A stretch of 64,000 nucleotides of DNA, taken from the NCBI RefSeq assembly GCF_000223215.1, contig NC_017243.1, positions 124,001 through 188,000 on the forward strand, in the 5' to 3' direction. The notes under the pieces are model-generated. The model worked only from the letters and a program-made list of their open reading frames with translations, searched no databases and was not told the origin of the DNA. The position numbers and the translations under genes were made by a program. The stretch is from Brachyspira intermedia PWS/A. Its GTDB lineage: Bacteria; Spirochaetota; Brachyspiria; Brachyspirales; Brachyspiraceae. How positions within the stretch are numbered: the first letter of the stretch is position 1; every line of letters starts with the position of its first letter. Shown here one piece after another: positions 3,322 through 64,000 of the stretch.

Positions 3322-3450
3322 AACACGCGGTGAGTAAAATTTGATATATAGTTTTTATTAGATTATTATTTTATTTATATTTTTGTATGAGTTTAACGCG
3401 TGTTAATTATAGTGTTTATTTAATTAAAGTTTGGGGTGGGCGGGCGGGGT
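3322..3450. repeat. R2 palindromic motif cluster (C, C', B) inside the GTA operon
   Basis: Contains AACACGCGGTG (3322-3332), its inverted partner TAACGCGTGTTA (3393-3404) and a G-rich segment TTGGGGTGGGCGGGCGGGG from 3431. These match motifs C, C' and B of the R2 family seen at about ten sites. It lies between the PEGA-like gene and the tail tube gene, 50 bases before the chosen tail tube start. Confidence 0.6.
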
Positions 3451-3502
3451 TATAATAGTTAAAAATAAAAATAATATTATTATATTATGCAGAGGCAAAA
3501 TA

Positions 3503-21306: not shown

Positions 21307-21339
21307 TTAATTTTATATAAATTCTATAAATTTAATATA

Positions 21340-21787
21340 CGCTTGGGTGGGTGTTACCATTTCTAATGTGATAAAAAAGAAATTTTGTATTTTTATTACT
21401 TATTAATTCAAAAAGGAAAAAGGGCGGGGTATGTAATTAATTTTTTAAAACAAAAATTAATTAGAATTCCCACCCTTTAGATTTATCACTTTTATATGTA
21501 TTTACAATCTCATCATATTTAATACTTTAATCAGAAATTATAGCTGCCCACCCAAGTATTTTTTTAATTTAAAAAATCACTAAACGCACGTTTAATGACG
21601 CTAAATATATAACTATATTATTAATATAAATTAAACTATATTTATAATTCTGCTTACCGTGCGTTAAATAGATACTAAATTTAAATAAATCTTGGGCGGG
21701 TGCTTCAATTTCTAATCAAGTTAAAAAAAATAATTAAATCAAAATTTCAAATTGTAGCAATAAATATAAAGGGTGGGCGAATGTAAG
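21340..21787. repeat. R2 palindromic motif array (B A A' B' C C' B A)
   Basis: No gene is seen. In order: CGCTTGGGTGGGTGTT (21340), AGGGCGGGGTATGTAA (21421), its inverse CCCACCCTTTAG near 21468, GCCCACCCAAGT near 21548, AACGCACGTTT near 21592, ACCGTGCGTT near 21657, CTTGGGCGGGTGCT near 21692 and AAGGGTGGGCGAATGTAA near 21769. That is one full mirror-ordered unit plus a partial one. It fills the gap between convergent genes. Confidence 0.7.
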
Positions 21788-21847
21788 TAAAATTTAAAAA
21801 ATAAATTATTTATTTTTCATTAAATCTAAATGCAATCAAATAAAAAA

Positions 21848-24160: not shown

Positions 24161-24255
24161 ATTAATTTATTAAGAAAAAACTGTCATTCCATATTTATAG
24201 TTTTAAATTTTAATTTTGTTCTATATGTATTTTTGAACTAATTATAAATGAAGGT

Positions 24256-24501
24256 TCCCGCCCAAAGTTTTATTCACATTTTTAATATATTCAGACGCAC
24301 GGTGAATGTATTCTTAGATATAATTTAAATTTTAATTAATATGCAATCTTATATTTATTATTCGGCTCAGCGTGCGGAATGGATATTCTAAATTTAAATA
24401 AATCTTGGGCGGGTGCTTTAATTTCTAATCAAGTTAAAAAAAAATAATTAAATCCAAAATTTTATTTAATAGCTATAAAGAAAAAGGGCGGGCGTATGTA
24501 G
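24256..24501. repeat. R2 palindromic motif array (B' C C' B A)
   Basis: TTCCCGCCCAAAG (24256), GACGCACGGTGA (24293), CAGCGTGCGGA (about 24366), CTTGGGCGGGTGCT (24404) and AAAGGGCGGGCGTATGTAG (24483). The left A' motif is missing or lost. It ends six bases before the stop of the minus-strand CAP lipoprotein gene, and no other gene lies in the gap. Confidence 0.65.
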
Positions 24502-24506
24502 TAAAA

Positions 24507-24950
24507 TTAATCAAAAAGCTGTACCCAATATAATTTTCCGTTACTGTCTTTATAAACGCCTATACCTATATAGCTATGACTGGCTATAATATTGTTATAA
24601 TGTCCTTGAGAATTTATCCATGCTTCCATTACAGCCTGAGGTGTTTTTTGATATCTTGCTATATTCTCAGCTGAAGGTTCTCGGCAGCCTTCTACTTCTT
24701 TTGATACTGTATAATAAGCAGTTTTATTTGGTCTAATATGATCAAAAAGAATTGATATTTCTTCTGCTCTTATAGCAGCTGCTCTATTTAATTTTTCATC
24801 TAATATCAAAGCATATCTGCCAATATCTGCTCTGGTTTGATTTACTAATTCAAATACTTCCTGTATTTCACTATTATTAGGCTCATATTTACTATTGCAG
24901 GATAATATGATAAAAGCAAATAACAATATAAATAAACTTTTTCTAATCAT
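24507..24950 (-). CDS. CAP (SCP/PR-1) domain lipoprotein
   Basis: 147 residues. The signal peptide MIRKSLFILLFAFIILSC ends at a lipobox cysteine. The rest is a compact CAP domain: VNQTRADIGRYALILDEKLNRAA, then a FDHIRP segment, the AENIA motif, AWINSQGHYNNI and a closing GIGVYKDSNGKLYWVQLF. The His of FDH, the Glu of AEN and the His of GHY correspond to the usual CAP cavity residues. CAP proteins are secreted and bind lipids or other small ligands; their exact role in bacteria is often unknown. The gene probably shares a transcript with the thymidine kinase gene 32 bases upstream. Confidence 0.8.
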   Translation of the reverse strand: MIRKSLFILLFAFIILSCNSKYEPNNSEIQEVFELVNQTRADIGRYALILDEKLNRAAAIRAEEISILFDHIRPNKTAYYTVSKEVEGCREPSAENIARYQKTPQAVMEAWINSQGHYNNIIASHSYIGIGVYKDSNGKLYWVQLFD

Positions 24951-34055: not shown

Positions 34056-34381
34056 TCACTTACATACCCCGCCATTTAAAGTTTTCTACTATATTTTAAA
34101 TTTTAGTTTTAATTATATTTAAAGCCAAATTAGAAATTACAGCACCCGCCCAAGTTTTGATTAGCTTTAAAATTATCATCAACGCACGGTTAGCTAATTT
34201 TTATTTATTATTTAAATTACTATTTTTAATTAATCATAAGTTTAAAACTTTGCTCTGCGTGCGGTGTGGAAGCAGCAAATTAAAAAACGCTTGGGTGGGC
34301 AGCTAAAATAACAGATTAAGATTAAGAAGAAAAATAATGCTGAAATGACAAATAGAATTAAAAAGCCTAAAGGGTGGGATC
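34056..34381. repeat. R2 palindromic motif array, complete unit (A' B' C C' B A)
   Basis: The cleanest copy: TACATACCCCGCCATTTA (about 34060), GCACCCGCCCAAGT (34142), AACGCACGGTTA (34181), CTGCGTGCGGTG (34255), CGCTTGGGTGGGCAGCT (34288) and AAAGGGTGGGAT (34369). The outer pairs A'/A and B'/B are inverted copies of each other. The gap between minus-strand genes at 33929-34429 holds nothing else I can support. Confidence 0.75.
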
Positions 34382-42349: not shown

Positions 42350-42405
42350 AATAGAAATATTATAATAAATACAAATAGTTTTCAAGTATTAAATTTAAAA
42401 ACTTT

Positions 42406-42427
42406 ATTTACATACCCCGCCCTTTAG
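42406..42427. repeat. Solitary R2 A' motif
   Basis: TTACATACCCCGCCCTTTAG stands alone without its B, C and mirror partners, 80 bases before an R1 fragment. It may be a remnant of a truncated R2 unit. Confidence 0.5.
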
Positions 42428-42479
42428 TTTTTTTGATTTTTTCTACATTTGATGGATTTATTTATAATATTTAATATGA

Positions 42480-42583
42480 AGTTCTAGTAATTGCGTTTTT
42501 TGCAACTTTTTTGTGCGGCAAAAAAGTTGATAATTTTACATAAAGTCATTGATTGACAAACTTAAAAATTTTCAGTATATACT
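42480..42583. repeat. R1 MITE-like repeat, copy e (right-end fragment)
   Basis: Hairpin CAACTTTTTT/AAAAAAGTTG around GTGCGGC (about 42503-42529) and a perfect right terminus TGACAAACTTAAAAATTTTC then AGTATATACT (42554-42583). The left part of the element is not present. It lies downstream of the methyltransferase gene; the rest of the 42386-42669 gap has no gene. Confidence 0.65.
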
Positions 42584-46574: not shown

Positions 46575-46780
46575 TAACACGCGGTTAGATGATATTATAT
46601 TTAAAAACAGTTATTATTAAAGTATTATTCTATAATATATAGCCAACTAAACGCGTGCTGAATTGGCTATAAATTTAATAAAATCTTGGGCGGGTGCTAT
46701 AATTTATAATAAAGCAAAAAGATAAAATAAAGTGAAAATTACATATTAGATAATAAAGAATAAAGGGCGGGGTGTGTAAA
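46575..46780. repeat. R2 palindromic motif array (C C' B A)
   Basis: TAACACGCGGTT (46575), inverted partner AAACGCGTGCTGA near 46648, CTTGGGCGGGTGCT (46685) and AAAGGGCGGGGTGTGTAAA (46762). The C pair here is the CACGCGG variant also seen at 3322. No left half is present. Confidence 0.65.
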
Positions 46781-46810
46781 TAGTTTTTTATTATTGCTAT
46801 TCTTGGGGTA

Positions 46811-53998: not shown

Positions 53999-54432
53999 TC
54001 CCGCACGGTGAGCTTAGCTTTAAACATAATAAAAATTATAATTATGAATTTGTTATAATATTTAAGTTTAGTTTATCGTGCGTTGTATATGCTATAAATT
54101 TAAATATCCGCTTGGGTGGGTGCTAACAAATTCTAATTTGGCAGAAAGAAAATAAAAATTTATATTGCATATTAATATTTAAAATATAGAGGGTGGGGTT
54201 TGTAATTAAATTTTAAAACTTAAATTACATACCCCCCCCTTTAGATTTATTATCTATTTTGTAATATGAAATTTTATTTAAATTTTTTGCTTAATTAAGA
54301 AAAAAAGATTCCCGCCCAAGATTTTTTTAAATTTATAGCGTTTACTTAACGCATGCTTTATACAATATTGTTTTTTTGCTATAAGTATAATTTTAATCTT
54401 GATTATATTTTTTGTTTTGCTTAGCATGCGAG
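53999..54432. repeat. R2 palindromic motif array (C C' B A, A' B' C C')
   Basis: CCGCACGGTGAGC (53999), TATCGTGCGTTG near 54075, CGCTTGGGTGGGTGCT near 54108, AGAGGGTGGGGTTTGTAA near 54188, then the inverse TTACATACCCCCCCCTTTAG near 54224, ATTCCCGCCCAAGA near 54310, TAACGCATGCTT near 54347 and AGCATGCGAG near 54423. Two half units meet head to head. It ends ten bases from the stop of the minus-strand gene. Confidence 0.7.
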
Positions 54433-55375: not shown

Positions 55376-55423
55376 AAAGATATTCCCTTGTAATTAATAA
55401 ATATATTGTTTTTTTAATTTATT

Positions 55424-55627
55424 TTCACTCCCCACCCTTTATATTTATCGTTTTTTGTTGAAAAGTTTGTTTAAAATATTTTTTTTGATTAGTTTAAAAA
55501 AGCATGCCCGCCCAAAATTTTTTTAAATTTATAGCGTTTACTTAACGCATGTTTTATGTAAGTTGTTTTTTTATTTTAAGTATAATTTTAATTTTTTTAT
55601 ATTTTTTGCTTTGCTTAGCATGGGTAA
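55424..55627. repeat. R2 palindromic motif array (A' B' C C', degenerate)
   Basis: CACTCCCCACCCTTTA (55426), GCCCGCCCAAAATTT near 55507, AACGCATGTTTTA near 55544 and AGCATGGGTAAT near 55617. The segment TTTTTTTAAATTTATAGCG, followed by TTTACTTAACGCATG, also occurs at 54322-54356, so the two neighbouring arrays share recent sequence. Confidence 0.6.
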
Positions 55628-62519: not shown

Positions 62520-62563
62520 TTTATTATTGTTGCTAGTGATAAACTCATAATTATAAATTTCAG

Positions 62564-62958
62564 TACCAGCCCAAGTGTTTATTAGATTTTAAATCTTTTT
62601 AACGCACGGTAAACAAAATTAACAATATAATAAAAATTTGAATTGCAAATAAATCTATATATTTAGCTTTACTCTGCGTGCGGTGAATGCACTATAATTT
62701 TAAATATAACTTGGGTGGGTTGTTAGAAATTCTGTTTATACTTCAAAGAAATAAAAAATCATAATTGCAAATTAAAGTAATAAGCCTAAAGGGTGGGCAA
62801 ATGTAATTAAGCTTTAAAACTTTATTTACATACCCCGCCCCTTAAAATTTACTGCTTTATTTTGAATTATAATATTGATTATCTTTATAGCTTAATTATA
62901 ATTTGTTAGCACCCGCCCAAGTGCTTATTATCTTGAAAATTTGTTTAATGCATTTCAG
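62564..62958. repeat. R2 palindromic motif array left of the TPR gene
   Basis: Order B' (ACCAGCCCAAGT, 62564), C (AACGCACGGT, 62601), C' (CTGCGTGCGGTG, near 62683), B (CTTGGGTGGGT, 62710), A (AAAGGGTGGGC, near 62788), A' (TTACATACCCCGCCCC, near 62824), B' (GCACCCGCCCAAGT, near 62910) and a worn C (TTTAATGCATTTC, near 62945). The 62600-62716 part recurs almost base for base at 63834-63950, on the other side of the TPR gene. Confidence 0.75.
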
Positions 62959-63057
62959 CAAAAAAATTAATTGTTCTAATATTAAATAATAACAGCTTGA
63001 AAATACCAAAAAATGAAATATATTATTTTCATAATAAAAAATTATTTGAGGTAAAAT

Positions 63058-63831
63058 ATGTCATCAGAAAAATATTATGAAGAAGGTTTAAATTATTTTA
63101 AAGAGAGAAAATACAAAGAAGCTATAGAATCTTTTGATAAAGCAATAGAGTTAGACCCTAATAATAGTAATACTTATTATAACAGAGGAATTACTAAAGT
63201 AAATTTAGGACAGTATGAAGAAGCTATAAAAGACTATGATAAAGCTATAGAGTTAAACCCTAATGATAGTGATACTTATAATAACAGAGGAATTGCCAAA
63301 TATAATCTAGGACAGTATCAAGAAGCTATTAAAGACTATGATAAAGCGATAGAGTTAGACTCTAATGATAGTGATTCTTATAATAATAGAGGAATTGCTA
63401 AAAAAAATTTAGGACAATATAAAGAAGCTATTAAAGACTATGACAAAGCAATAGAATTAGACCATAATTATAGTTCTGCTTATAGCAATAGAGGAATTGC
63501 TAAAAAAAATTTAGGACTGTATGAAGAAGCTATAAAAGACTATGATAAAGCAATAGAATTAGACACTAATGATAGTAATGCTTATAATAACAGGGGACTT
63601 GCTAAAGGAAGTTTAGGACAATATAAAGAAGCTATTAAAGATTTTGATAAATCTATAGAGTTAAACCCTAGTTATAGCGATGTTTATAATAACAGAGGAG
63701 TATCTAAAGAAAATTTAGGACAGTATAAAGATGCATTAAAAGATTATAAAAAGGCTTTGGAATTAGATTCTAATAATAACATAGCTAAAAATAATATAAA
63801 AAATCTTCAAAATAAATATGGTTTGAAATGA
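63058..63831 (+). CDS. Tetratricopeptide repeat (TPR) protein
   Basis: 257 residues made of about seven 34-residue TPR units with the consensus NRGIAKxNLGQYxEAIKDYD followed by KAIELD. The repeats are nearly identical to each other in DNA, so copy number may vary. No signal peptide or other domain is present; the protein is probably a cytoplasmic scaffold. The gene sits within an R2 array: the same 117-base R2 segment occurs before it and again starting two bases after its stop codon. GAGG before the ATG supports the start. Confidence 0.88.
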   Translation: MSSEKYYEEGLNYFKERKYKEAIESFDKAIELDPNNSNTYYNRGITKVNLGQYEEAIKDYDKAIELNPNDSDTYNNRGIAKYNLGQYQEAIKDYDKAIELDSNDSDSYNNRGIAKKNLGQYKEAIKDYDKAIELDHNYSSAYSNRGIAKKNLGLYEEAIKDYDKAIELDTNDSNAYNNRGLAKGSLGQYKEAIKDFDKSIELNPSYSDVYNNRGVSKENLGQYKDALKDYKKALELDSNNNIAKNNIKNLQNKYGLK

Positions 63832-63833
63832 CT

Positions 63834-63960
63834 TTACGCACGGTAAACAAAATTAACAATACGATAAAATTTAAATTTCAAATAAATCTATATATTTAGC
63901 TTTATTCTGCGTGCGGTGAATGCATTATAAATTTAAAAAAACTTGGGTTGGTGTTAACAA
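63834..63960. repeat. R2 palindromic motif array right of the TPR gene
   Basis: TTACGCACGGTAAAC (63834), CTGCGTGCGGTGAATGC (near 63908) and CTTGGGTTGGTGTTAAC (63942). It is a direct repeat of 62600-62716 with about ten differences. It may continue past the window edge; no gene is seen to base 64000. Confidence 0.7.
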
Positions 63961-64000
63961 TTATGTTTAAACTTTAAAAAATAAAAAATCATAAATGTAA

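Follow-up and report, generated by a model that had tools for sequence, protein, structure and literature searches.

The DNA analysed here (the window) is a stretch of 64,000 nucleotides, bases 124001-188000, of the 3,304,788-bp chromosome of Brachyspira intermedia PWS/A, whose genome also includes a 3,260-bp plasmid. No tRNA or tmRNA genes were found in the window. At window positions 34056..34381 lies an imperfect mirror-ordered unit built from GC-rich cores of 6-7 bp: A' and B' (both CCCRCCC, with R being A or G) and C (CGCACG), followed by the inverted partners C', B, and A. In the general layout of the family, A' -78- B' -37- C -74- C' -37- B -78- A (distances in bp), three nested inverted core pairs make up a unit of about 310 bp, and adjoining units meet in an A-42-A' junction, 42 bp from core to core. 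The AT-rich centre, which separates C from C' (for example, window 34189-34257), has a loose consensus of its own (AATTTATAATATAATAAAATTTGAATT...) that is seen across species.

An earlier note, made from the window alone, had described this mirror order at about ten sites. All six motifs were indeed present in order at 34056-34381, and a half-element profile search of the window returned nine good clusters and one doubtful one (3346-3496), in agreement with that count (Table 1). The window also contains a G-rich heptamer run in this 27% GC genome, GGGTGGGCGGGCGGGG at 3434-3449; its match to the half-element profile was weak (E 9e-4), and it probably does not belong to the repeat.

Table 1. Copies of the repeat in the window and cores of the unit at 34056..34381 (window coordinates; numbers after core names are core positions).
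Feature	Position	Strand	Remark
Array: half-element B 21345, A 21422; junction; full element A' 21469, B' 21547, C 21585, C' 21658, B 21694, A 21771	21321..21800	.	
Element B' 24257, C 24296, C' 24371, B 24407, A 24486	24193..24508	.	
Imperfect mirror-ordered unit A'B'C..C'BA	34056..34381	.	Both halves profile-matched, E 4e-31 and 3e-27; cores located by sequence
A' core CCCGCCA, degenerate	34068..34074	+	One base off CCCRCCC
B' core CCCGCCC	34145..34151	+	77 bp from A'
C core CGCACG	34183..34188	+	38 bp from B'
C' core CGTGCG	34258..34263	-	75 bp from C
B core GGGTGGG	34293..34299	-	35 bp from C'
A core GGGTGGG	34372..34378	-	79 bp from B
Truncated copy, A' alone, core 42416	42392..42487	+	
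Half-element B 46688, A 46765	46622..46790	-	
Head-to-head half-elements: C 54002, C' 54077, B 54114, A 54191 / A' 54233, B' 54311, C 54350 (CGCATG), C' 54425	54002..54430	.	
Half-element A' 55431, B' 55507, C 55546 (CGCATG)	55416..55565	+	
Array: C 62603, C' 62677, B 62713, A 62791 / A' 62834, B' 62912	62546..62986	.	
Element C 63837, C' 63910	63823..64000	.	Runs beyond the window end

The motifs were matched 7 times each in the 64,000-nt window, against 0.01, 0.01, and 0.13 matches expected from shuffled sequence. Collecting the copies genome-wide, as the earlier note had recommended, yielded 128 exact C..C' pairs in B. intermedia PWS/A and none of a reversed control pattern. Their geometry was examined in the origin region by a distance count that was unbiased in permitting any spacing of 10-200 bp between A' and B'. 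The A'-to-B' distance was 76-79 bp in 66 of 67 cases, B' to C was mostly 37-38 bp, C to C' was 73-75 bp, and A to the A' of the neighbouring unit was about 42 bp. The spacing of 25-80 bases reported before as roughly kept is thus kept, but far more tightly than stated. The companion statement that the spacers are not conserved was nearly right for their sequence (64% identity between copies vs. 56% after shuffling) and missed that their length is fixed: it holds to within about 1 bp although the spacers are often replaced. Such a tight length distribution at near-saturated sequence points to constraint on the spacing itself. A coding relic is disfavoured: spacer lengths vary by 1-3 bp, and the copies are intergenic.

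Orthologous sites at which a single alignment spans the element were then compared between B. intermedia and two relatives, G007 and G025. G/C positions of the cores had changed in 5 of 294 cases (1.7%) in G007 and 17 of 444 (3.8%) in G025, whereas the corresponding values were 132/423 (31%) and 188/618 (30%) in the spacers, 24% and 18% in flanking intergenic DNA, and 12% and 10% in coding sequence. The A/G position R, which serves as an internal control because transitions affect it just as they affect the C columns and yet it is free to be A or G, had changed at 25% and 33%. Ascertainment somewhat favours intact copies, and the spacers were drawn from those same copies. Judged from these alignments, the short GC-rich cores are held by selection. 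The uniform decay of motifs and spacers that would mark a decaying insertion was looked for and not seen, and the constraint on the cores keeps the protein-binding sites suggested earlier plausible.

Inverted partners differ systematically from each other. At the A-A' junction, with its 35-bp loop, the two R bases were A/G in 55 of 57 cases and never G/G; in a separate set of loci they were unlike in 19 of 21 junctions. The unlikeness weakened as the partner distance rose from 35 to 140 to 300 bp, with unlike R bases in 51 of 62 B'..B pairs (140 bp) and 26 of 41 A'..A pairs (300 bp). Position -1 of C behaved similarly, being A/C in most pairs and essentially never C/C, and an independent set likewise contained no C/C. 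Across orthologous junctions the state was kept in 20 of 24 comparisons. The arm types are also linked within a unit, C-1 with C+6 at 118:18 and the R of B with the R of A at 20:2.

The earlier note had offered RNA stems as the alternative to protein-binding sites. In that case a transcript would fold with the inverted cores as its stems, and R would form a G.U wobble or an isosteric A.C. On one strand the partners CCCGCCC/GGGTGGG could indeed pair along their whole length with a single wobble, and joint G.T to A.C changes occur at the B'/B pair of 34056..34381. The unlike bases at C, in contrast, are A vs. C and G vs. non-G, which are not isosteric wobbles. Pairing covariation was absent beside C, where arm positions +10 and +11 vary independently of pairing, and Watson-Crick compensation was absent between the partners in general, which were systematically unlike or independent. 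Neither does the unlikeness follow the direction of transcription, the G.T strand being the coding strand in 13 cases and the opposite strand in 19, and elements occur in every gene orientation. No Rfam model matched the window at the gathering threshold. The unlike partners, the lack of covariation beside C, and the lack of agreement with the coding strand disfavour an RNA stem, which we consider very unlikely; this half of the former suggestion is unsupported.

Alternatively, the copies could be selfish or neutral repeats in which gene conversion alone conserves the motifs and descent from an ancestral polar unit alone accounts for the unlikeness. The linkage of arm types within a unit and the common replacement of segments are what such repeats would display. 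Conversion alone, however, leaves unexplained why the cores change less than coding G/C (10-12%), and a swap of the flanking context still leaves the junction R bases unlike: among 40 junctions that have C vs. G before the core, 31 had one arrangement, 9 the other, and none were alike. This explanation is accordingly improbable. Inversion of the centre between orthologues was examined as a frequent source of swapped polarity and was not supported (59 direct, 2 weak inverted, and 21 ambiguous cases). From the sequences, we read the unlikeness as selection against perfect palindromes, or for a two-sided (polar) assembly, at positions unneeded for recognition. An obligatory difference of inverted partners is unusual for any bacterial repeat.

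The family extends across the genus. Exact C..C' pairs were present in 23 of 26 Brachyspira genomes, the other carriers holding 23-143 pairs each, while genomes G001, G003, and G019 contained none; the reversed control pattern was absent from all 26. In a scan of GTDB species genomes, the low-GC genomes among the matches listed were all Brachyspira, and the remaining matches listed were high-GC genomes in which the rest of the lattice was almost missing. On the strength of these scans, the repeat is likely limited to Brachyspira. A viral origin was rejected, as the 15 viral contigs that matched the A-B pattern were all of high GC content and look like chance matches. Copies of B. murdochii (G009) at 1.22-1.90 Mb carry a distinct arm type, with TTTTAGATTTAAAAGCTTTATTTTTT after the A core, which indicates that arm lineages differ between species.

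The origin referred to throughout is that defined by GC skew. Sequence numbering of B. intermedia PWS/A starts at this origin, as passages of its genome paper state (PMC3163572), so coordinate 0 is the inferred origin, and the sampled GC skew supports this placement, being lowest near 0 and highest near 1.72 Mb. The 427 kb surrounding the origin (84 kb intergenic) contained 106 half-elements, 105 of them (99%) intergenic, compared with 5 in the 49 kb of intergenic DNA of a 400-kb region at the terminus, corresponding to densities of 1.27 and 0.10 per intergenic kb. The 53 exact A cores (CCCCGCCCTTT) had a mean distance from the origin of 390 kb vs. 826 kb expected, a value as low being reached in 0 of 100,000 simulations. 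In a second complete genome (G004) the copies were most frequent about the skew minimum of that genome, near 1.74 Mb, and in B. murdochii they lay mostly at 1.2-2.0 Mb, where the sampled skew flips sign.

The position of the Brachyspira origin is disputed, having been placed at dnaA in earlier papers and by GC skew in the B. intermedia paper, passages of which also state that dnaA is remote from the skew origin (PMC3163572). We observed the same separation: in the Brachyspira genomes examined, dnaA was distant from the skew origin and away from the repeat copies in four of four (at 1330717, or 1.33 Mb, in B. intermedia), the repeats tracking the skew origin and not dnaA.

At least five other intergenic repeat families occur in B. 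intermedia, including short hairpin families and a 317-bp family with 23 copies near the origin and 11 near the terminus. Counts of five other families in these regions showed two that were nearly even per intergenic base, two that were about twofold enriched at the origin, and one of 6 copies that occurred in the origin region only; none approached the 12-fold origin bias at comparable numbers. With respect to gene orientation, and with related genomes pooled, which overstates the significance, convergent gaps held 35% of the elements vs. 20% of all gaps of at least 250 bp, and divergent gaps held 12% vs. 20%. The placement between convergent genes or just after stops that had been noticed in the window is therefore a bias but not a rule. 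Since the copies are intergenic, accompany genes of any orientation, and thin out from origin to terminus in several species, a chromosomal role is likelier than control of single genes.

The sites are also subject to extensive exchange. The element at 34056..34381 was found in about ten relatives and was missing from others, and in a comparison with a 96%-identical relative its A'-B' spacer proved wholly different, the remainder of the element being nearly identical. Spacer replacement between orthologues recurred at further sites, with segments common to distant copies, and similarity of the A-B spacer did not predict that of the B-C spacer (r = 0.09). In the array at 21321-21800, relative G007 is one 348-bp unit short and is joined within the A core. 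Gene-order breaks fell on 8 of 29 element gaps vs. 1 of 29 other long gaps in a comparison of two species, and on 9 of 27 vs. 3 of 28 in the reverse direction, which overlaps the first set. The best reading of these comparisons is that the family is mosaic and recombinogenic. The earlier choice between binding sites and a decaying insertion was too binary: the copies do not decay uniformly, but they exchange segments, gain or lose a whole unit, and coincide with breakpoints.

These data lend weight to a serious rival, in which the repeat is non-autonomous and mobile, or recombines (MITE-like or a BIME-like mosaic), and its units have spread and swapped segments through transposition or ectopic gene conversion. 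A transposase or recombinase would then recognise the cores, and the origin gradient would reflect a bias of insertion or retention (gene dosage, few essential operons). The gain or loss of the 348-bp unit exactly between two A cores, the exchange of spacer segments, the excess of synteny breaks on element gaps, and a copy number spanning 0 to 143 C..C' pairs between species are all in keeping with it. On the other hand, cores are constrained at orthologous sites that do not move, most other repeat families of the same genome are without strong origin bias, and the partner-difference rule is unexpected for transposon ends. Inverted ends are present, but element-free orthologous sites gave no clean junction or target duplication. 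Mobilisation by RAYT, as for REP/REPIN sequences, was rejected: the Y1_Tnp domain (PF01797; RAYT/IS200-type) was found in 0 of 26 Brachyspira genomes and in 5 of 14 controls. Overall, we regard such a mobile or recombining origin of the family as possible but doubtful, and as partly compatible with a scaffold role.

The reading that we prefer, at a probability of about one half, is that the repeats are genus-wide composite DNA sites for multi-site protein binding that act at the level of the origin domain. Core constraint and geometry suggest that CCCRCCC and CGCACG are bound by one or more candidate proteins with sequence specificity, which would then build a nucleoprotein structure across the AT-rich spacers of fixed length. 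Given the chromosomal position of the copies, such assemblies may serve the architecture, anchoring, segregation, or division-site signalling of the origin domain, and the variable positions (R and the core-adjacent bases) would keep the inverted partners unlike and the palindromes imperfect. The wide range of copy number between species counts against an architectural function; together with the gain, loss, and rebuilding of sites, it implies more mobility than essential sites of this kind should show. A Noc-like ParB paralogue was considered as the binder and rejected, because each of the 26 genomes, including the three repeat-free ones, has exactly one ParB-family match (PF02195), uncorrelated with presence of the repeat.

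Several known systems share features with the family. Noc NBS, SlmA SBS, and parS are single short palindromes with many dispersed sites that cluster at the origin and are depleted at the terminus. The Brachyspira sites are likewise numerous, dispersed, enriched at the origin, and rare at the terminus, but their unit consists of six cores over 310 bp. BIME or REP (PU) arrays of enterobacteria are intergenic mosaics of alternating inverted GC-rich modules, the REP being a 35-bp hairpin. Like them, the Brachyspira family has a characteristic spacing, an excess in convergent gaps, an absence from coding DNA, alternating inverted modules, and mosaic exchange. It differs in its 6-7-bp cores, set in a 310-bp lattice of three nested pairs with unlike partners, and in its grading from origin to terminus; cores 37-78 bp apart are also not the close pairs of GC-rich hairpins of about 20-35 bp that characterise REP/REPIN. 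BOX, ERIC, RUP, and Correia elements are modular intergenic repeats of 100-300 bp with tens to hundreds of copies per genus, comparable in size and copy number to the present family, which is distinguished by its sequence, its spacers of fixed length and freely varying sequence, and the measured constraint on orthologous cores and origin gradient.

The repeat was absent from the examined passages of the genome papers on B. intermedia, B. hyodysenteriae, and B. pilosicoli (two genome papers), and no earlier account of it was found in the literature searched, a coverage outside which most subscription papers fall. Tentatively, it might represent a kind of chromosome-organising site not described before, in which rigid three-pair nucleoprotein scaffolds with obligatorily unlike partners form an array in the origin domain that would be read by a genus-specific DNA-binding system.

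Chromosome organisation is poorly known in spirochaetes, and a repeat that in several species becomes denser towards the skew origin offers a physical handle on the question of the origin. Its copies mark rearrangement breakpoints near the origin, and the repeat is a ready-made DNA bait for the candidate binding protein.
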